64,000 nt of DNA from Desulfocarbo indianensis. GTDB taxonomy: Bacteria > Desulfobacterota > Desulfarculia > Desulfarculales > Desulfarculaceae. The position numbers were made by a program, and so were the translations under genes. Positions 11,016-54,344 of this stretch are shown here, one piece after another. The notes under the pieces were generated by a model. That model ran no database searches and was not told the origin of the DNA. It saw nothing but the letters and a program-made list of their open reading frames with translations. Position 1 is the first letter of the stretch. Each line of letters opens with the position of its first letter. The stretch is from assembly GCA_001184205.1 (NCBI GenBank), contig LBMP01000005.1:62001-126000 (forward strand), read 5' to 3'.

Positions 11016-11984
11016 ATGTCCTCCTCAGACCAAATAAACCCAGCCTTCAGCTACCAGCGCCTGGCCGGCGCCGCCCTGGGAGGCATGTGCGGCGACGCCC
11101 TGGGCATGCCGGTGGAGGGGTGGCAGTCCCAGGAGATAAGCCGGCGCTATGGCCGCCTGGACAGCATGCAGGCGGGCCGGCTGCCCGCCGGTTCCTATAC
11201 CGACGACAGCCAGATGATGATCGCCATTCTGAAAACCCTGGCCGACCAGGGCCGCTTGGACGGCCCCCATTTGTCCCAGGAGTTCCTGCGGACCTTCGAG
11301 CCCCGGCGGGGCTATGGCACCCGCATTTTCGGGGTCATGCAGCGCCTGGCCGCCGGGGCGGCCTGGGATGGGGCGGGCACGGATTCCCTTGGCAACGGCG
11401 GCGCCATGCGGGTGGGGGTGCTGGGCGCTTATTACGCCGACGACCTGGAGGCCTGCCAACGGGCGGCCTATGACCAGTGCCGCATAACCCACCAGCATCC
11501 CCAGGGTCTGGCCGGGGCCGTGGCCCAGTCTTTAGCGGTGGGCATGGCCTGCCGAATGGGCGCTTCCGGCGAGATACCCGCGCCCCACGACTTTCTATCT
11601 GAAATAGCCGGCCGGGTGGAGGCCATGGACGCCCACACCGCCGCCAGGCTTAAGGCCATGCCTTCCCTGCCGCGCGGCGACGAGGCCGCGGCCAGGCAAG
11701 CCCTCACCCAGGCCTATGCCTGCGACGTCACCGCGGCCGAGGCGGTGCCGCCGGCCCTGGGCGCTTTCCTGGCCGCTGAAAACGCCGAACAGGCAATCGT
11801 ACTGGCCGTGAGCCTGGGGGGAGACACCGACACCATAGGCGCCATGGCCGGGGCCCTGGCCGGGGCCTATTGGGGGCTGGACGCCCTGCCCGCCGCTTGG
11901 CTAAACGGCCTGGAAAACGGCGATCAGGGGCGGGATTACGTGCTATCGCTTTGCCCGCGGGCCATATCCGTAAAAAGCGGTTGA
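11016..11984 (+). CDS. ADP-ribosylglycohydrolase (DraG/ARH family)
   Basis: Magnesium-dependent hydrolase expected to remove ADP-ribose from proteins or small molecules. The 322-aa protein shows the N-terminal metal-site region GGMCGDALGMPVEGW (about 22-36), the YTDDSQ motif at 61-66 (two metal-binding Asp) and the C-terminal SLGGDTDTIGAMAGALAGAY with Asp 270 and 272, all diagnostic of ARH/DraG. No ADP-ribosyltransferase partner and no nitrogenase genes lie nearby, so the substrate is unknown. ATG 11016 begins the conserved domain, whereas the open frame extends upstream without one. Confidence 0.92.
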   Translation: MSSSDQINPAFSYQRLAGAALGGMCGDALGMPVEGWQSQEISRRYGRLDSMQAGRLPAGSYTDDSQMMIAILKTLADQGRLDGPHLSQEFLRTFEPRRGYGTRIFGVMQRLAAGAAWDGAGTDSLGNGGAMRVGVLGAYYADDLEACQRAAYDQCRITHQHPQGLAGAVAQSLAVGMACRMGASGEIPAPHDFLSEIAGRVEAMDAHTAARLKAMPSLPRGDEAAARQALTQAYACDVTAAEAVPPALGAFLAAENAEQAIVLAVSLGGDTDTIGAMAGALAGAYWGLDALPAAWLNGLENGDQGRDYVLSLCPRAISVKSG

Positions 11985-37776: not shown

Positions 37777-38577
37777 TCAAGCGGCCAGGCTCCCGCTCAG
37801 GGACAGGGCCAGGTCCGAGGCCGCGGCCAAGCCCTGCTCCGCGCTTTCCGCCTCCAGCATGCGCTTGACCAGGGCGCTGCCCACGATGACCCCGTCGGCC
37901 ACGCCGGCCAAGGCGGCGGCCTGCTCGGGCGCGGCCACCCCGAAGCCCACCGCCACCGGCAGGCCCGCGGCGGCCTGGCGCACCCGCTGCACGGCGGCCA
38001 GGCTCTTGGCGTCCATGCGCAAGGCGCCGCCGGTCACCCCGTACATGGAAACGTAATAGAGGAATCCGCTGCACGCCCGCAGAACCGTCTGCAGCCGCTC
38101 CCGGCTGGTGCCGGGGGTGACCAGGAATATGGTGTCCAGGCCATGCTCGCGGGCCGCCTGCAGCCAGGGCCCGGCTTCCTCCGGGGGCAAATCCGGCACT
38201 ATCACCCCGGCCACGCCCGCCTGGGCCGAGCGGGCGGCGAAGCTATCCAGGCCCATGGCCAGCATGGGGTTGTAATAGGTCATGAGCACCAGGGGCGCGC
38301 TCACCTGGTCGCGCAAGCCGGCTGCCAGCTCGATGATGCCGGCGGGGGTGGCGCCCCCGTCCAGGGCGATCTTGCCCGCGGTCTGGATCACCGGGCCGTC
38401 GGCCACGGGGTCGCTGAAAGGCACGCCGATCTCGATGATGTCCGCGCCGGATTTATCCAGCGCCGCGATGAGCCGGGCGCAGGTAGCCATGTCGGGGTGG
38501 CCGCCGGTTACATAGGGTATGAAGGCGGCGCGGCCCTGGGACTTGGCCCGGGCAAAGGCCTCTTGGATGGTTCTCAT
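37777..38577 (-). CDS. trpA: Tryptophan synthase alpha subunit
   Basis: Cleaves indole-3-glycerol phosphate to indole and G3P and passes indole to TrpB. The 266-aa TIM barrel shows YVTGGHPD, the catalytic Glu and Asp in [16 protein letters not shown], the Asp in VPDLPPEE, and phosphate-binding GFGVAAPEQ and [12 protein letters not shown] 38577 overlaps the trpB stop (ATGA). Last gene of trpDCFBA, followed by a strong terminator. Confidence 0.97.
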
Positions 38578-39803
38578 GCGTTGTCCTCCAGATAGCTTTC
38601 CACGTGAGCCACGTCCTTGTCGCCCCGGCCGGAGAGGCACACCAGTATCATGTCTTCCGGCGAGAGCTTGGGGGCCAGCTCTCGCAGATAGGCGATGGCG
38701 TGGGAGCTTTCCAAAGCGGGGATGATGCCCTCGGTGCGGCACAGCAGGCGGAAGGCCTCCACCGCCTGCCGGTCGGTCACCGCGGCGTAGCTCACCCGGC
38801 CCAGCTCCTTGAGGAAGCTGTGCTCCGGCCCCACGCCGGGATAGTCCAGGCCGGCGGCGATGGAATGGGCCTCGATTATCTGGCCGTGGGCGTCCTGCAA
38901 AAGGTGCATGTAGGCGCCGTGCAGCACCCCCGGCCTGCCCGCGCTCAGGCTGGCCGCGTGCTTGCCGGTTTCCAGGCCGTGGCCGGCGGCCTCCACCCCG
39001 ATCAGCTCCACCGGGTCATCGCGGAAGGCGTGGAACAGGCCCATGGCGTTGGAGCCGGCCCCCACGCAGGCCATGGCCACCCGGGGCAGGCGGCCTTCCT
39101 TGGCCAGGATCTGCTCCCTGGCTTCGCGGCCGATCACGGCCTGGAATTCGCGCACCATGATCGGATAGGGATGGGGGCCGATCACCGAGCCCATGATGTA
39201 GTGGGTGGTCTCCACGTTGGTCACCCAATCGCGGATGCCTTCGTTCACCGCGTCCTTCAGGGAGCGGCTGCCCGATTCCACCGGTACCACCTGGGCGCCC
39301 AGCATGCGCATGCGGGTGACGTTGGGGGCCTGGCGCTGGATGTCCAGGGTCCCCATGTACACCTCGCATTCCAGGCCCATGAGCGCGGCGGCGGTGGCGG
39401 TGGCCACTCCGTGCTGGCCGGCCCCGGTTTCGGCGATGATGCGCCGCTTGCCCATGCGCTTGGCCAAAAGCACCTGGCCCAGGGCATTGTTGATCTTGTG
39501 GGCCCCGGTGTGGGTCAGGTCCTCGCGCTTGAGGAACACGCGCGCGCCGCCCAGCTCCCGGCTGAGCCGTTTGGCCTCGTAGAGCGGCGTGGCCCGGCCG
39601 GCGTAGTCCACCAGGAGGCCGTTAAGCTCCTCCTGAAAGGCCTGGTCGCTCCGGGCTTGCCTGAAGGCCGCCTCCAGCTCCTCCAGCGCCGGCATCAGGG
39701 TTTCGGGCACGAAACGCCCGCCAAAGGCGCCGAAGCGGCCTTGCTCAGATGGCAGCGTCAAGGGCGCTTCGGGCGCTATGGATAAAATCCGCGATTTTGC
39801 CAT
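38574..39803 (-). CDS. trpB: Tryptophan synthase beta subunit
   Basis: PLP enzyme joining indole and L-serine. The 409-aa product has the PLP lysine in [10 protein letters not shown] (Lys103), [14 protein letters not shown], the phosphate loop GAGSNAMG and the C-terminal [12 protein letters not shown] 39803 is preceded by GGGAGA and overlaps trpF by 59 bp. A TTG 14 codons further in would give a shorter start nearer the conserved domain, so the exact start is open. Confidence 0.96.
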
Positions 39804-40353
39804 GGTCTTTTCTCCCTGGTTCCATTTCCACACCGCTGGATACGTCCACGGCGTATGGTTTCACTTGCTTGATCGCCTCGGCCACGTTCTCCGGCCCCAG
39901 GCCGCCGGCCAGTATCAAAAGCCGTTCCCTGGCCAAGCGGCTGGCCAATTGCCAATCGCATTTCTTGCCGGTGCCGCCCCGCATTTTGGGATCATAGGCG
40001 TCCAGCAGGACGGCGGCCCGGGGCAGGCGCGGCAAGCTCCCGCCCTTTACCCGCACGGCTTTTATGACGCCGGGGCCCAGGGCCCGGATGTATTCGTCAT
40101 CCTCATCGCCGTGCAGCTGCACCAGATCCAGCCCGCAATAATCGCGCACCTTGCGCAGATGCGAGAGGGGCGCGTTCACGAACACGCCGACCTTGAACAC
40201 GAAGGGCGGCAAATGACCCGCGATTTCCCGCACGGTCTCGGCGCTCACCCGCCGGGGGCTGTCGGCCATGACGAACCCCAGGGCGTCCGCCCCCAGGCGC
40301 ACCGCGGCCTGGGCGTCGGCCCGGTTGGTTATGCCGCAAATCTTAATCTTCAC
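39745..40353 (-). CDS. trpF: Phosphoribosylanthranilate isomerase
   Basis: Amadori isomerase converting PRA to CdRP. The 202-aa barrel begins [14 protein letters not shown] with the catalytic Cys, carries VQLHGDED, and ends with the catalytic Asp and phosphate loop AVDVSSGVE. Overlaps trpC by 4 nt. Confidence 0.96.
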
Positions 40354-41150
40354 GGTTTGCCTCCGTTCGAGTTGAGCAAGGCCCGCACGGCCTGTTCCGG
40401 GTCTTCCGCGCGCATGAGGCTGGTGCCCACCAAGAAGGCGTCCAGACCGCCGGCGCGGAGCCTGGCGACGTCTTGCGGCGCGCTGACGCCGCTCTCGGCC
40501 ACCACGGTCACGCCGGGGGGGATCAGGGGCCGCAAGCGCAGGCAGGTATTGAGATCGATGCGCAGGGTTTTCAGGTCCCGGTTGTTTATACCCACCAGCT
40601 CCGGCCGCAGATCCAGCACCGGCCGCAGCTCGCCCTGGTTATGCACCTCGATCAAGGCCGTCATGCCCAACTCCCGCGCCAGGTCCCGCAGTTCGGAGAG
40701 AGCGCCTTTACTGAGCGCGGCGGCGATCAAAAGAACCGCGTCGGCCCCGGCGGCGCGGGCCTGGTAGACCTGGCTGGGCCGGATGATGAAATCCTTGCGC
40801 AGCACGGGCAGCCCGCAGGAAGCCCGCGCCTCAACCAGGTCCTGCAGGGAGCCGCCGAAAAATTTTTCATCGGTGAGCACCGATAACGCCGCCGCGCCGC
40901 CGCGCTCATAAGCCCCGGCCCGCTGGTTCACCTTCACTTCCCTGGCCAGGCTGCCCGCCGACGGCGAGGAGCGCTTGATCTCGGCGATGAGCGCCGCGCC
41001 GTGGTTGCTGCGCAAGGCGGCTAGGAAATCCCTGGGCGGCGGCCCCTCCCCGGCCATGAGCCGCAACTCGCTGAGGGGATGCCTGGCTTCGAGCCGCATT
41101 ACATCCTCGCGCTTGTTCTCCAGTATCTTTTGCAATATGTCGCCCGCCAC
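40350..41150 (-). CDS. trpC: Indole-3-glycerol phosphate synthase
   Basis: Closes the indole ring from CdRP. 266-aa barrel with ALIAEIKRSSPSAG (catalytic Glu/Lys), LTDEKFFGGSLQDL, PVLRKDFII (catalytic Lys), IEVHNQGEL, GINNRDLKT and AESGVSAPQDV. Single-function, not fused to TrpF. It starts 10 bp after trpD ends. Confidence 0.97.
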   Translation of the reverse strand: MAGDILQKILENKREDVMRLEARHPLSELRLMAGEGPPPRDFLAALRSNHGAALIAEIKRSSPSAGSLAREVKVNQRAGAYERGGAAALSVLTDEKFFGGSLQDLVEARASCGLPVLRKDFIIRPSQVYQARAAGADAVLLIAAALSKGALSELRDLARELGMTALIEVHNQGELRPVLDLRPELVGINNRDLKTLRIDLNTCLRLRPLIPPGVTVVAESGVSAPQDVARLRAGGLDAFLVGTSLMRAEDPEQAVRALLNSNGGKP

Positions 41151-41160
41151 TTGCCGCCTC

Positions 41161-42207
41161 CTAGGCTTGAGCCGCCTGCAGGGCGGGTTGGTTGGCCGCG
41201 GCCACCAGCTCGTTAAGGCGGGCCATGGCCGCTCCCGAATCGATGGAGCGGGCCGCCTGGCCCACTCCCTCGCGGAAGCTTTCGGCTCTCCCGGCGGCCA
41301 GCAAGGCGCCGGCCGCGTTCATCAACACCATGTCGCGGCGGGGGCCCGTCTGGCCGTTGAGAATCGCCATGGTTTGTTCGCGGGATACTTGAGCGTCGCC
41401 GCCTTTGATTTCCCCTAAGCTGGCCCGCTGCAAGCCGGCCTCCTCGGGCGTGACGCTGAACTCGCTCACCTCGCCGCCCGCCAAGCGGGCGATGCTGGTG
41501 CGGCCGGTTATGGTTATCTCGTCCAGCCCGCCCTCGCCGTGCACCACCAGGGCGCTGTCGGCGCCCAGGCGGGCCAGCACCTCGGCCAGGGGACGCACCA
41601 TGCGGGGATCGTACACCCCCACCAGAAGCACCGTGGCCCCGGCCGGGTTGGTCAGCGGCCCCAGCAGGTTGAAGATGGTGCGCAGGCCGATTTCCCGGCG
41701 GGGACCCATGGCGTGGCGCATGGCCCCATGCAAAAGTGGCGCGAAAAGGAAGCCTATGCCGGCCTGGTCCACGCATTGGCCGATGCGCTCGGGGGGGAGA
41801 TCAAGGGGGATGCCCAGGGCTTCGATCAAATCGGCGCTGCCGCAGGAACTGCTCACCGCCCGGTTGCCGTGCTTGGCCACCTTGAGGCCGCAGCCGGCCA
41901 CCACAAACGCGGTGGTGGTGGAAACGTTGAAGGTGCCGGCGCCGTCGCCGCCCGTGCCCACCGTATCCACCAGCATCTCGCCCGACGATCTGGCCAGGGT
42001 GGGCACCTGACTCACCTTGGCCCGCATCACCTTGGCGGCGCCGGAGATTTCCTCCACGCACTCGCCTTTCATGCGCAGGGCGATCAAGAGCGCCGCGATC
42101 TGGGCCGGGGTGGCGCGGCCCTCCATTATGTGGTCCATGGCGTCGATCATCTCGTTCTCTTCCAGGTGTTTTCCCCCCACCGCCTTGGCTATGGCTTGGC
42201 AAATCAT
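41161..42207 (-). CDS. trpD: Anthranilate phosphoribosyltransferase
   Basis: Transfers phosphoribose from PRPP to anthranilate. 348 aa with the helical N-terminal domain, the PRPP glycine loop DTVGTGGDGAGTFNVSTTTA, KHGNRAVSSSCGSADLIEAL and the second metal motif VVHGEGGLDEI. AGGGAGG precedes ATG 42207. First gene of the trpDCFBA block, separated from tyrA by 380 bp containing two tandem Trp leader peptides and two attenuators. Confidence 0.97.
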   Translation of the reverse strand: MICQAIAKAVGGKHLEENEMIDAMDHIMEGRATPAQIAALLIALRMKGECVEEISGAAKVMRAKVSQVPTLARSSGEMLVDTVGTGGDGAGTFNVSTTTAFVVAGCGLKVAKHGNRAVSSSCGSADLIEALGIPLDLPPERIGQCVDQAGIGFLFAPLLHGAMRHAMGPRREIGLRTIFNLLGPLTNPAGATVLLVGVYDPRMVRPLAEVLARLGADSALVVHGEGGLDEITITGRTSIARLAGGEVSEFSVTPEEAGLQRASLGEIKGGDAQVSREQTMAILNGQTGPRRDMVLMNAAGALLAAGRAESFREGVGQAARSIDSGAAMARLNELVAAANQPALQAAQA

Positions 42208-42231
42208 GTGAACCTCCCTTTGGGCTGAGCT

Positions 42232-42275
42232 AAAAAAAGTTAGCCGCGGGCCGACTCTCTGGTCTGCCCGCGGCT
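42232..42275 (-). terminator. Second attenuator terminator before trpD
   Basis: Minus strand: perfect 10-bp stem AGCCGCGGGC/GCCCGCGGCT, 14-nt loop, then AAC and seven T. The loop-side GGGCAGACC (complement at 42261-42269) can instead pair perfectly, over 9 bp, with GGTCTGCCC at the end of leader peptide 2 (complement at 42306-42314). This is the alternative antiterminator expected for Trp attenuation. Confidence 0.88.
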
Positions 42276-42298
42276 TTTAGTTTTGATCTTGCTTGGGT

Positions 42299-42388
42299 CT
42301 ATCTAGGGCAGACCTCTCCAGCGGCGCTGCGCCACCACCAGCCCCAAACTCCCCGCAAGGAAACGATCGTGATTATCTGTTTTCTCAT
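42299..42388 (-). CDS. trpL: Trp leader peptide 2 (tandem trp attenuator)
   Basis: 29-codon ORF after the first attenuator. It begins MRKQIITIVSLRGV and continues WGWWWRS, i.e. four Trp codons within five, then stops just before the second terminator. An in-frame ATG three codons upstream is an alternative start. Ribosome stalling on the TGG run would free the antiterminator pairing described for the second attenuator. Confidence 0.85.
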   Translation of the reverse strand: MRKQIITIVSLRGVWGWWWRSAAGEVCPR

Positions 42389-42414
42389 GGTCCCCATACC
42401 CGGCTATCAAATAT

Positions 42415-42449
42415 AAAAAGGGCCGTGGTCCCCTTGAGGTCCACGGCCC
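42415..42449 (-). terminator. First attenuator terminator before trpD
   Basis: Minus strand: 9-bp perfect stem GGGCCGTGG/CCACGGCCC, 12-nt loop, then TTTTT. AGACCA just before the stem (complement at 42450-42455) can pair with TGGTCT at the end of leader 1 (complement at 42476-42481), a weaker 6-bp candidate antiterminator. Confidence 0.85.
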
Positions 42450-42473
42450 TGGTCTCGCTATCTTATGCTTCGC

Positions 42474-42548
42474 TTAGACCACTCCGGCGCGCGGCACCTC
42501 CGCGTTCTTACGCCACCACCAGTTGCGCCAAGCGGCCATTGCTATCAT
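42474..42548 (-). CDS. trpL: Trp leader peptide 1 (tandem trp attenuator)
   Basis: 24-aa ORF starting MIAMAAWRNWWWRKNAEV, with Trp codons at residues 7, 10, 11 and 12. AAGGGA lies about 10 bp upstream of the ATG at 42548. The ORF ends 25 bp before the first attenuator stem, and the promoter lies about 30 bp upstream of the start codon. This is the standard arrangement of a trp leader. Confidence 0.88.
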   Translation of the reverse strand: MIAMAAWRNWWWRKNAEVPRAGVV

Positions 42549-42584
42549 GGTCAAACTATCCCTTACGGCTATCAATTGGATTTC

Positions 42585-42613
42585 ATCTTACCCCAAGCAG
42601 ATAGCGTGGTCAA
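42585..42613 (-). promoter_or_regulatory. Promoter of the trpDCFBA block
   Basis: Minus strand: TTGACC (42613-42608), 17-bp spacer, TAAGAT (42590-42585). It sits over the last codons of tyrA and would start transcripts near 42578, giving a 30-nt leader before leader peptide 1. Confidence 0.7.
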
Positions 42614-43418
42614 TATAATGATTTTTAGCCTGGGGCAGGGCCAAGGCCGCCCCGCGGTCCAACAAGCCGGCCAAGCCCTCCTGGTCATGGGCTTCCAGTT
42701 TGCTCCCCAGTTCGCTCACCGCGCGGGAGAGGGCCTCAACGGCTTCCGCGGAATGGGGATTGGCCAGGGCCAAGTCGGCGTACAAGCCGGCCGGCTGGGC
42801 GGCCTGGTTCTCCAGGAGCGACCACAAGGACGCGAACCAGGGGCCGGCCAGGGGCAGGTCTTCTTCCGGCTCGAAGCCCATCTCCTTTAGGACCAGGCCC
42901 AAGGAGCCCACCATGAGGTGACGCAAGGTTTGCACCTGGGCCATGAGGCGATCGTGACGGGAGGGCGAAATCTCCGTCACCCGCGCCCCGGCCCTTTTCC
43001 AAAGAGAGCGCCACCAGGAGGCCCATACCTTGCCCCGGCCGGGGCAGAGGAACACGGTCTGCCCCTCCGGTTCGCCAGATGGCCCGAAAAGGGGATGGCT
43101 GGCCACCACCTCTCCCCGGGCGTATCGCAGCATTATCTCAAGGGGAGCTTCCTTGAGGGAGGCTATGTCTATCACCGCGCCGTCGCGCCTGGTATAGGGC
43201 CCCACCGCCCGCATTACCTCCTCGAAGGCCGGCACCGGCACGGCCAGGATCAGCACCAGGCATTGCGCCGCGGTTTCGGGCGCGAAGGACCCGTCGCAGA
43301 CGTCCATGATCTGGGGCCGCAGTCCCGCCTCCTTGAGGAGCCGGACCAACAGGCCGCCCATGCGTCCCTTGCCTCCGATCACGCCCACGGTGATGGGCTG
43401 AAAGCCTCCCTCCTTCAT
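42588..43418 (-). CDS. tyrA: Prephenate dehydrogenase
   Basis: Oxidative decarboxylation of prephenate (or arogenate) toward tyrosine. The 276-aa protein has the nucleotide-binding VGVIGGKGRMGGLLV, the catalytic His in ASHPLFGPSG and a helical C-terminal domain with RHDRLMAQVQTLRHL. No ACT domain follows. ATG 43418 is chosen because GGGAGG stands 7 bp upstream. It follows pheA by 15 bp. Confidence 0.92.
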   Translation of the reverse strand: MKEGGFQPITVGVIGGKGRMGGLLVRLLKEAGLRPQIMDVCDGSFAPETAAQCLVLILAVPVPAFEEVMRAVGPYTRRDGAVIDIASLKEAPLEIMLRYARGEVVASHPLFGPSGEPEGQTVFLCPGRGKVWASWWRSLWKRAGARVTEISPSRHDRLMAQVQTLRHLMVGSLGLVLKEMGFEPEEDLPLAGPWFASLWSLLENQAAQPAGLYADLALANPHSAEAVEALSRAVSELGSKLEAHDQEGLAGLLDRGAALALPQAKNHYIDHAICLG

Positions 43419-43433
43419 GATCAAGCCTCCCGG

Positions 43434-44628: not shown

Positions 44629-45543
44629 TTAGCTCAACAACACCGGGCGGCCCAGGGCGCTGGCCACGTGCCGCAACTCGTCCATCATAGTCGAGAACTG
44701 GCCCGGAGTGAGCGATTGATCGCCGTCGCACAGGGCCGAATCGGGCGCGCAATGCACTTCCACCATGATGCCGTCGGCGCCCACCGCCAGGGCGGCCCGC
44801 GCCAGGGGGCTGACGAAGCGGCGATGGCCCACCGCGTGGCTGGGGTCCACCACCACCGGCAGATGGCTGCGTTCTTTTATGACGCACACCGCGCTCAGGT
44901 CCAGGGTGTTGCGGGTGGCGGTCTCGAAGGTGCGAATGCCGCGCTCGCAAAGGATCACCCGCTCGTTGCCGCCGGCCATGATGTATTCCGCCGAAAGCAG
45001 GAATTCCTTGACCCTGGTCATGAGGCCGCGCTTGAGCAGCACCGGCTTGTTGATCTTGCCCAGCTTGCGCAGGAGCGAGAAGTTCTGCACGTTGCGCGCG
45101 CCCACCTGCAGGATGTCGGCGTAGTCTTCCACCAGGTGAATGTCTTCGCTGTCCATCACCTCGGTGACGATGGGCAGACCGGTGAGTTCGCGGGCCCTGG
45201 CCAGAAGCTTGAGGCCCTCCTCGCCCATGCCCTGGAAGCTGTAGGGGGAGGTGCGCGGCTTGAAGGCGCCGCCGCGCAGGATCACCGCGCCGGCGTCCCG
45301 CACTTCCTGAGCGGTCAGCATCATCTGCTCGGCGCTTTCCACCGAGCAGGGCCCCGCGATGACCGCGAAGCTGGACCCGCCGATGACGGCGCCGCCTACA
45401 TGGATCACGGTGTCTTCGGCCTTGGTTTCGCGGCTGACCAGGAAACCACGGCCTTCCTTCTTGCAAGTGGCCGCGTCTTCCGGCGCCGCGATGGGTTTTG
45501 CCGGTTCGACCACCGCCTCTCTGTTCATATCCACTGCCAACAT
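44629..45543 (-). CDS. aroF: DAHP synthase (short, AroA-Ibeta type)
   Basis: First shikimate-pathway step (PEP + erythrose-4-phosphate). 304 aa: a poorly conserved first 60 residues, then the KDO8P-synthase-like barrel with [52 protein letters not shown] and [10 protein letters not shown]. It lacks the ferredoxin-like regulatory domain that the second copy (51047-52087) retains, so its activity may depend mainly on expression control. AAGGAGGG precedes ATG 45543. It heads the aroF-pheA-tyrA block behind a Phe/Tyr leader peptide. Confidence 0.93.
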
Positions 45544-45607
45544 TTTCGCCCTCCTTAAATCCTTGCGGCCCAGGCTCTGTTTCCGCCGCCGGCCCTCCCA
45601 ACGCAGA

Positions 45608-45642
45608 AAGGCCATGGGCGGTTTTCGTCCGCCCATGGCCTT
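45608..45642 (-). terminator. Phe/Tyr attenuator hairpin before aroF
   Basis: Minus strand: perfect 14-bp stem AAGGCCATGGGCGG/CCGCCCATGGCCTT with a 7-nt loop. The following T tract is short (TTTCTG), so termination may be partial. GGGCGGACG at the stem-loop junction (complement at 45626-45634) pairs perfectly over 9 bp with CGTCCGCCC inside the leader ORF (complement at 45694-45702), giving the antiterminator. Confidence 0.75.
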
Positions 45643-45674
45643 GGTTGGTTTCGGCTCTTAGCTAGTCTTTGGCC

Positions 45675-45773
45675 TTACACCTCCACAGCCTGCGGGCGGA
45701 CGGCGGTAAAATAAAAATAATAATAGTTAAAGAAGAACAGACCTGCGCCGGGAGACTCCGTCCCCTGGCTCAT
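45675..45773 (-). CDS. Phe/Tyr leader peptide of aroF-pheA-tyrA
   Basis: 32-aa ORF from ATG 45773 with AAGGA upstream. It contains LFFFNYYYFYFT: five Phe and four Tyr codons in ten positions. It ends 33 bp before the attenuator hairpin. Ribosome stalling at Phe or Tyr codons should favour the antiterminator and transcription of the DAHP synthase, P-protein and prephenate dehydrogenase genes, all steps toward these two amino acids. Confidence 0.88.
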   Translation of the reverse strand: MSQGTESPGAGLFFFNYYYFYFTAVRPQAVEV

Positions 45774-49803: not shown

Positions 49804-51050
49804 GCCTTGAGCCGTTGCCAATCCCGGGCAAAGCCGGGATAGGAGATGGCCGCGCAATCGGCGTCCTTGATCCGCGGCGCTTGGCCGGCCGCCTCGCCGG
49901 CCATGGCCAGGGTCATGGCGATGCGGTGATCGCCAAAGGAATCCAGCTCATGGTCCGGCGCGCTGAGCTTGGCCGGGCCGTGGATCAGGAGGTCCTCGCC
50001 GCGCTCCTCCAGCTTGGCCCCCATGGCGCCCAACTGGGAGACGATGGCCCCCAGGCGGTCCGATTCCTTTATGCGCAGCTCGCCCACCTGCTTGAAGACG
50101 GTCACGCCTCGGGCCTGGGTGGCGGCCAGGGCCAGGATGGGCACCTCGTCCACCAAGAGCGGTATTTCCCAGGCCTCCACCTGGCAGGCGCGCAGGTCCG
50201 GGCTATAGGCGGCGCTGACCAGGCCCCAAGGCTCGGGGTCGCGGCCCTGCTCCTGGATATCAATGCGCGCGCCCATGCGTTGCAGCACCTTGAGGAAGCC
50301 GGCGCGGGTGGGATTGAGCAGCACGTCATGGGCCTCCACCCGGCTGCCGGGGGTGACGACCGCCCCGCAAATGAAAAAGGCCGCCGAGGAGGCGTCGCCG
50401 GGAACCCGCAAGGTAGGGGGCAGGGTCAGCCCGGAGCGGCTCACCCGCCAAAGGCCATCCTGGCGGCTGATGTCGGCGCCGCAGGCCTTGAGCAGGAGCT
50501 CGGTGTGGTCGCGGCTGGGAGCCGGCTCGGCCACCAGGGTTTGGCCCTCGGCCTGGATGCCGGCCAGCAAGAGGGCGCTCTTGAGCTGGGCGCTGGCCAC
50601 CGGCAACTTGTGCTCCACGCCGTGCAGCGGGGCTCCGCTGATGGCGATGGGGGGCTTGCCTTCCCGGCAGCGCACCTGGGCCCCCATGGCGTTCAGGGGA
50701 TCGGCCACCCTTTGCATGGGCCGGCGGGACAAGGACTCGTCGCCACTCAAGGTGAAGCTGCCGGGCCGGCCGGCCAGGATTCCCATCAAGAGGCGCATGG
50801 TGGTGCCGGAGTTGCCGCAATCCACCTCCGCCGAGGTCAGCTCGCCCGCCGCGCCGGTCAGGGCCACCCTGTCCCCGCTTTGCTCCACGCCCACGCCCAA
50901 AAGCCGGGCGGCGGCCAGGGTGGAGGCGCAATCCGCGCACGGCGAAAAATTGGCCACCTGGCAGCGCCCCTTGGCCAAAAGCGATAAAAGCCCCAGCCGG
51001 TGGGAAATGGATTTATCCCCCGGCGGATTGACGGCGCCCTTGAGACTCAT
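49800..51050 (-). CDS. aroA: 5-enolpyruvylshikimate-3-phosphate synthase
   Basis: Transfers the enolpyruvyl group of PEP to shikimate-3-phosphate. The 416-aa product has [34 protein letters not shown] (active-site loop), [18 protein letters not shown] and the C-terminal [16 protein letters not shown] and SFGDHRIAM. It overlaps the DAHP synthase stop by 4 nt. Confidence 0.97.
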
Positions 51051-52087
51051 GGGGTCGCCTCCCGGACCGTGCGGCCCACGGCGCTGGCCACGCCGGCCAG
51101 ATTCCGCATCATGCCGGCGAAACCGGGCAGGTCCAGGCTCTGCCTGCCGTCGGACAAGGCCTGGTCCGGGTTGGGATGGACTTCGATCAGGAGCCCGTCC
51201 GCCCCGGCGGCCACCGCCGCCGCGGCCAGGGCCGGCACCAGTTCGCGCTTGCCCGCCGCGTGGCTGGGGTCCACCACCACCGGCAAATGGGAGTATTGCT
51301 TCAAAAGCGGCACGGCGGAGAGGTCCAGGGTGTTCCTGGTCTCGGTCTCGAAGGTGCGGATGCCGCGCTCGCAGAGCATCACCTGCCAGTTGCCCCTGGC
51401 CAGGATGTATTCGGCGGAGAGCAGCAGCTCCTTGATGGTGGCCATCATGCCCCGTTTGAGCAGCACCGGCCGGTCGGTTTCGCCCGCCGCCTCCAGCAGG
51501 GCGAAGTTCTGCATGTTGCGGGTGCCGATCTGCAGGACGTCGGCGTAGCGCGCCACCAACTCCACCTCGTTGGCGGTAAGCACCTCGGTCATGATGGGCA
51601 GGCCGGTGATCTCGCGGGCCTCGGCCATGATCTTGAGCCCCTCCTCGCCCAGGCCCCGGAAGGAGTACGGGCTGGTGCGCGGCTTGAAGGCCCCGCCCCG
51701 CAGGCCGCCGGCCCCGGCCTTGGCCACGGCGCGGGCCGTCTCCTGGAAATTCTCCCGATTCTCCACCGCGCAGGGCCCGGCGAAAACCGCCACCTCGGGA
51801 CCGCCCACGCGCAGCCCGCCGATTTCGATGACGGTGGGCTCGCCGCGGAAATACCTGCCCACCAGTTTCCAGGATTGATCGAAGCTGGAGATTTCCTCCA
51901 CCCCCGCCATGTCCCGCAGAGAGTCGGCGATTTCCTCGGCCCGGGCGCGGCTCATGTTCTCCACCACCGCCAGCACGGTGCGGGGGTCGGAGGAAATTAT
52001 CCGCGGCTCCAAGCCAAACTCCCGGATGGCCGCCAGAACCTTGGCCACCTGGGATTTGGGGCAGCCTTTTCGCATGGCTATGACCAT
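51047..52087 (-). CDS. DAHP synthase with N-terminal ferredoxin-like regulatory domain
   Basis: 346-aa second copy of the first-step enzyme. Residues 1 to about 70 form the ferredoxin-like domain known from the Thermotoga enzyme, where Tyr/Phe bind ([20 protein letters not shown] ... [10 protein letters not shown]). The catalytic barrel follows with [56 protein letters not shown] and [10 protein letters not shown]. It is thus likely feedback-regulated, unlike the short copy at 44629-45543. Situated between trpG and aroA with a 4-nt overlap to aroA. Confidence 0.94.
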
Positions 52088-54152: not shown

Positions 54153-54182
54153 AAAAGCCCACCGTCACTAAGACGGTGGGCT
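54153..54182 (-). terminator. Attenuator terminator before trpE
   Basis: Minus strand: perfect 11-bp stem AGCCCACCGTC/GACGGTGGGCT with a 5-nt loop, then TTTTC. CACCGTCTT in its 5' arm (complement at 54170-54178) pairs perfectly over 9 bp with AAGACGGTG in the leader ORF (complement at 54234-54242), forming the competing antiterminator a few codons after the Trp run. Confidence 0.9.
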
Positions 54183-54206
54183 TGCTCACTTGGCGTTGGC
54201 TCTGGT

Positions 54207-54344
54207 TTAGCTGGGGCGATCCAGGGCGAAGCTCACCGTCTTGGGCGAGCGCCACCACCAGTAAAAGCCAAAGCCCTGCCCCGCCGTCAGCGACGGAGCG
54301 GCCGGAGCGCTTGGCTTATGGTCTAAACCCTGAGACATATGCAT
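54207..54344 (-). CDS. trpL: Aromatic leader peptide of the trpE block
   Basis: 45-codon ORF (43 if the second ATG at 54338 is used); GAGGA precedes the first ATG by about 5 bp. The centre reads GFGFYWWWRSPKTVS: two Phe, one Tyr and three Trp codons in eight positions, followed by the KTV codons whose RNA forms the antiterminator arm. The block it controls holds anthranilate synthase and most common-pathway enzymes, so reading three aromatic amino acids would fit. Confidence 0.88.
   Translation of the reverse strand: MHMSQGLDHKPSAPAAPSLTAGQGFGFYWWWRSPKTVSFALDRPS

Follow-up and report, generated by a model that had tools for sequence, protein, structure and literature searches.

Does the spacer in front of trpD in D. 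indianensis hold one tryptophan attenuator or two, and if there are two in series, what would the second one be for? The window analysed here is a 64-kb stretch of D. indianensis DNA, and the leader region is the 380-nt spacer on its minus strand that runs from the tyrA stop (42588) to the trpD start (42207). The initial annotation described a promoter, two Trp-rich leader peptides and two terminators on the minus strand between tyrA and trpD, and all of these were present when the sequence was re-read. We propose that they make up two trp-type ribosome-mediated attenuators acting in series on one leader RNA, both sensing charged tRNA-Trp, a reading to which we give a probability of roughly 75%.

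Anatomy and competing pairings of the leader region

The features of the region, in the order in which they are transcribed, are as follows.

42588-43424, minus strand: tyrA, the upstream neighbour in the supraoperon (NCBIfam prephenate dehydrogenase, every match under the curated cut-offs)
42585-42613, minus strand: sigma-70-type promoter, TTGACC-17-TAAGAT, overlapping the end of tyrA
42474-42548, minus strand: leader peptide 1, MIAMAAWRNWWWRKNAEVPRAGVV, 24 aa, Trp codons at 7, 10, 11 and 12
42476-42501, minus strand: segment 2 of unit 1 (5' arm of the antiterminator), -28.4 kcal/mol with segment 3
42419-42450, minus strand: terminator 1 (segments 3:4), tail TTTTATATTT, -24.1 kcal/mol
42299-42388, minus strand: leader peptide 2, MRKQIITIVSLRGVWGWWWRSAAGEVCPR, 29 aa, with WGWWW and ...VWGWWWRSAAGEVCPR
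42306-42314, minus strand: segment 2 of unit 2, GGTCTGCCC, 9 bp with 42261-42269
42261-42269, minus strand: segment 3 of unit 2, GGGCAGACC, common to antiterminator 2 and terminator 2
42242-42275, minus strand: terminator 2, AAC then seven T, tail AACTTTTTTT, -26.2 kcal/mol
37777-42207, minus strand: the genes controlled, trpD, trpC, trpF, trpB and trpA (NCBIfam trpD, TrpC, phosphoribosylanthranilate isomerase, trpB and trpA)

The promoter is the sole promoter-like site on both strands of 42150-42700, where shuffles lead one to expect 0.2, and a CTTGAC-type -35 box is found at the equivalent place in the family members that were read. Each leader has four Trp codons in its run, with Phe and Tyr in neither, and leader 2 is preceded, in the window, by a weak Shine-Dalgarno sequence. 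Trp-rich reading frames of this kind (10-45 codons long, four or more Trp within a stretch of six) appeared in none of 5000 dinucleotide shuffles of the spacer, against two in the real spacer; across the whole window there is one other such frame (10-60 aa), which lies inside aroC. Searched with the covariance models of Rfam 15, the region gave no match at the gathering threshold, nor any leader family up to E = 5.

In both units the antiterminator and the terminator are mutually exclusive, since segment 3 is common to the two. The antiterminator of unit 1 is a long interrupted helix, GAGGT.CCGCG.GCC...GGTC with GACC.GGC.CGTGG.ACCTC, formed with the 5' arm of terminator 1, and its energy was matched by none of 300 shuffled segments (p ~0.003). 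In unit 2, segment 2 likewise pairs with the 5' arm of terminator 2, and the perfect 9-bp pairing described in the initial annotation, GGTCTGCCC/GGGCAGACC, was borne out. The antiterminator of unit 1 had been called the weaker of the two; this was wrong, as it reaches -28.4 kcal/mol and that of unit 2 -20.9 kcal/mol.

Segment 2 starts 25 nt before the stop codon in unit 1 and 14 nt before it in unit 2, close enough for a ribosome that terminates there to mask it. Models of the nascent RNA that place a ribosome on the Trp codons give the 2:3 pairing, at -30 to -35 kcal/mol for unit 1 and -17 to -22 kcal/mol for unit 2; once the ribosome is moved to the stop codon, this pairing is lost and the terminator alone remains. 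At equilibrium the full leader invariably folds with the terminators in place, so the mechanism would hinge on kinetics; a kinetic switch would be expected to behave in this way. Both units have the parts of a trp-type attenuator, that is, a leader reading frame with cognate codons, an intrinsic terminator, an exclusive antiterminator and a segment 2 near the stop codon, and the genes downstream, trpDCFBA, are those of the amino acid that would be sensed.

Conservation and covariation of the two units

A DNA search with the whole spacer gave no useful conservation. The leaders evolve too fast for such a search, and we therefore read the orthologous positions upstream of trpD and trpE. The family concerned is Desulfarculaceae-type, its named members being Desulfarculaceae and Dethiosulfatarculus, and 15 of its genomes with a readable trpD upstream region were counted. 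Two units precede trpD in nine of them (G000, G002, G005, G010, G012, G014, G015, G017 and G019) and one unit in six (G003, G004, G007, G008, G009 and G011). The automatic segment search misses the single unit of G003 and the trpE unit of G014, a late stray Trp codon having misplaced the start. The nine tandem genomes span five genera and both leaders recur there, so that the refuting outcome named with the initial annotation, no conservation of the second leader in close relatives, did not occur. An assembly duplication was rejected, as the units differ from each other and recur in other genomes.

A leader 1 of the (A/S/C)WR(Y/N)W type occurs in most of the family, and the terminator arm GGGCCGTGGAC is kept in most copies of unit 1. 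This arm is also present in the single units of five of the six single-unit genomes, the exception being G003, and these five are clearly of the unit 1 type. Unit 2 is similar across genera, with none of 300 shuffles as good in any comparison, and most of its copies have a GGTCTGTCC/GGACAGACC-type switch helix in common. On the TrpD tree, three to four changes between one and two units are needed. Because the similarity of unit 2 between genera goes beyond that of shuffles, and because of the common switch helix, we prefer an ancestral pair with later losses. The suggestion of a duplication that later diverged gains from the likeness of the units within a genome, since the score of unit 1 against unit 2 exceeds nearly all shuffles in seven of the eight tandem genomes tested; this likeness fits an old duplication and could partly reflect common function, so that the duplication is not proven.

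A covariation check of homologous regions had also been proposed, and it revealed compensatory changes across genera in the antiterminator helix of unit 2. MAFFT alignment of whole units loses the antiterminator register, and the unit 2 segments were therefore registered by hand on their pairing, a procedure that favours the structure and for which slid controls are the guard: 86% of cells pair, versus 22-44% in the slid versions. Both-sided changes were seen in 5 pairs, and the covariation score was higher than that of all 500 shuffles.

At locus L043, the ~165 nt before trpD contain one Trp leader, MKKIRIKSIQWWWLPRKG, and after it two hairpins in a row that resemble terminators and have T tracts. 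Outside the family, the region upstream of trpE was surveyed in 59 and about 23 other genomes of the phylum (~82), a survey of trpE and not of trpD; no convincing tandem was found there, and single Trp leaders were present in about half of the genomes. G146, which belongs to another family, has a single unit before trpD (L143, ~11500-11849). The Trp run of this unit, FWGWWR, is supplied by the C-terminal end of TyrA itself (FWGWWRDMGGDSRHPDV), and GATTCGCGGC is able to pair with GCCGTGAATC of the terminator. Since this Trp run is part of TyrA, internal units of this kind would act on read-through transcription.

The aromatic supraoperon and its candidate regulators

The trpDCFBA genes close a supraoperon encoded on the minus strand, which consists of trpE, trpG, aroF1, aroA, aroE, aroKB, aroC, aroQ, aroF2, pheA, tyrA, trpD, trpC, trpF, trpB and trpA, in which aroQ was assigned from its own sequence and from tblastn matches in relatives. 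They lie behind two further attenuators of like build, a context that was absent from the initial annotation.

54155-54338, minus strand: Phe/Tyr/Trp attenuator before trpE, leader 54338-54207 with GFGFYWWW, terminator 54183-54155
45609-45773, minus strand: Phe/Tyr attenuator before aroF2-pheA-tyrA, leader 45773-45675 (MSQGTESPGAGLFFFNYYYFYFTAVRPQAVEV), terminator 45641-45609

The trpE attenuator, which apparently senses Phe, Tyr and Trp, has an antiterminator of -22.6 kcal/mol and a terminator of -23.5 kcal/mol, and an FYWW-type leader precedes trpE in 11 of 12 family genomes, all but G003. The run of the aroF2 attenuator is FFFNYYYFYF, with an antiterminator of -31.9 kcal/mol and a terminator of -27.7 kcal/mol. 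A leader with a Phe/Tyr run was found in all 11 family supraoperon loci that were read and in G146; in G007 and G011 the automatic search gave no T-tailed terminator after this leader, yet a hairpin is present. Judging from the codon runs, specificity so appears to narrow along the transcript, from Phe/Tyr/Trp to Phe/Tyr and then to Trp twice. It seems rather probable to us that one supraoperon governs the family's aromatic pathway through successive attenuators, with no TrpR, and that each of these stages sets the reach of the polymerase according to which aromatic amino acid runs short; in some members the last stage is a single unit.

The supraoperon holds two DAHP synthase genes, one in the trpE section (51047-52087, minus strand) and one in the pheA-tyrA section (44629-45636, minus strand), the latter section having its own attenuator. 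In G003, where trpD is far from trpE, a reading frame at 9249-9467 of L203 ends in LYRYYYYYQPLGG and is possibly a Tyr leader.

A search of 26 genomes gave no TrpR homologue, with a positive control in E. coli, and control by TrpR was rejected on this ground. As TrpR was not found, a stronger attenuator may stand in for the repressor. Most family members have a palindrome, GTATAC or GTATAC(T/A/C)GTATAC, at their trpD and trpE promoters (for example L009 and L014 for trpD; L088 and L100 for trpE). It was not seen at the Phe/Tyr leaders, and it is missing from both trp promoters in the window, in G002 and in G005. An unknown trp regulator, not present in every member, may bind it.

Proposed serial attenuation, its alternatives and known systems

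Under the proposed serial mechanism, Trp scarcity would make a ribosome stall at the Trp codons of both leaders, the 2:3 pairing would form and RNA polymerase would pass. Since the polymerase would have to clear both units, read-through would multiply, which would bring basal expression down and the dynamic range up. Theory indicates that a single trp attenuator has high basal read-through, because ribosomes come off the stop codon while the terminator is still incomplete (PMC1183508), so a second unit would multiply the basal level down. The pair ends a supraoperon whose upstream attenuators would open on Phe/Tyr (and Phe/Tyr/Trp) shortage, and its likely role is thus an insulating one. A shortage of Phe or Tyr would send polymerases through tyrA to trpD, where a strict Trp gate would stop them; under ample Trp, the tandem would shut trpDCFBA off from this upstream read-through and equally from transcription that starts at its own promoter. 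The supraoperon context is a better rationale for a double gate than steeper repression alone. The second gate is dispensable in the six relatives with one unit.

These same relatives show that units can be lost, and together with the weak Shine-Dalgarno sequence of leader 2 in the window they could point to a locus where one unit alone is the Trp switch and the other is a decaying duplicate, left as a constitutive partial terminator. We consider this unlikely: both units in the window have a leader reading frame, a Trp run, a stop codon, a terminator and a strong antiterminator, compensatory changes hold the antiterminator of unit 2, and both units persist in several genera. A difference between the leaders in signal or threshold, such as Trp together with Tyr, after the manner of the two mgtCBR attenuators, is quite unlikely. 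Tyr or Phe codons do stand near the run in some relatives (WRYWW, FYWWRW) and the spacing of the Trp codons differs between the units, but the runs in the window are of four Trp each without Phe or Tyr, and a clear Phe/Tyr run is found elsewhere, at 45.7 kb.

The units might also belong to separate transcripts, unit 1 blocking read-through from tyrA and unit 2 serving a promoter between the units. Supraoperon read-through is plausible, and the single internal attenuator of G146 appears to need it, with the TyrA tail as its leader; however, the sole promoter-like site lies upstream of unit 1 and has a conserved -35 box, and leader 2 starts only ~30 nt after terminator 1 ends. The scan of 42150-42700 found no promoter-like site between the units, a promoter there was rejected for this reason, and we regard separate transcripts as very improbable. 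GC-rich DNA commonly holds short reading frames, and chance frames beside ordinary terminators, with no regulation, would need no further explanation; the result of the 5000 shuffles and the conservation of both leaders in nine genomes led us to reject chance frames, and such an origin is hardly credible.

The serial Trp attenuators proposed here resemble E. coli trpL in their short leader reading frames, tandem Trp codons, exclusive 2:3 and 3:4 pairings and position upstream of trp genes. In E. coli, however, one unit lies before trpE and works with TrpR, whereas here two lie in series before trpD, within a supraoperon, and TrpR was not found. The pheA, thr and ilv leaders of E. coli have runs for single or multiple amino acids and are comparable to the Phe/Tyr and Phe/Tyr/Trp leaders described here, but each is the sole attenuator of its own operon, while those of D. 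indianensis are stages of one supraoperon. The pyr operon of B. subtilis has several attenuators for one signal at different points of the operon; these are mediated by the PyrR protein and lie between different genes, whereas the present units are back to back. The trp T-boxes of Firmicutes include tandem examples. Tandem T-boxes are likewise serial RNA elements that sense uncharged tRNA, although they bind the tRNA directly and without a leader peptide, where the tandem described here uses leader peptides. Such tandem T-boxes exist, their mode of action being unknown (PMC7583486).

The nearest parallel is the mgtCBR leader of Salmonella, in which two leader reading frames (mgtM and mgtP) and two serial attenuators are found on one leader RNA, an arrangement that its authors called a "singular example" (PMC3641672). 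In mgtCBR the serial attenuators respond to different signals, ATP and proline, and their stem-loops are unlike intrinsic terminators (PMC3641672), whereas both runs in the window hold Trp only and both units have intrinsic terminators. A search of the accessible literature turned up no account of leader-peptide attenuators placed in series for a single amino acid, and none of a four-attenuator layout of an aromatic supraoperon. If our reading is true, attenuators can be used as composable stages, serial for stringency and sequential, with differing amino acid specificities, on one transcript, and they would offer a possible route to trp repression without TrpR. The locus would then be a natural test of what attenuation in series does to basal level, dynamic range and sensitivity, for which close relatives with one versus two units are ready-made comparison pairs.
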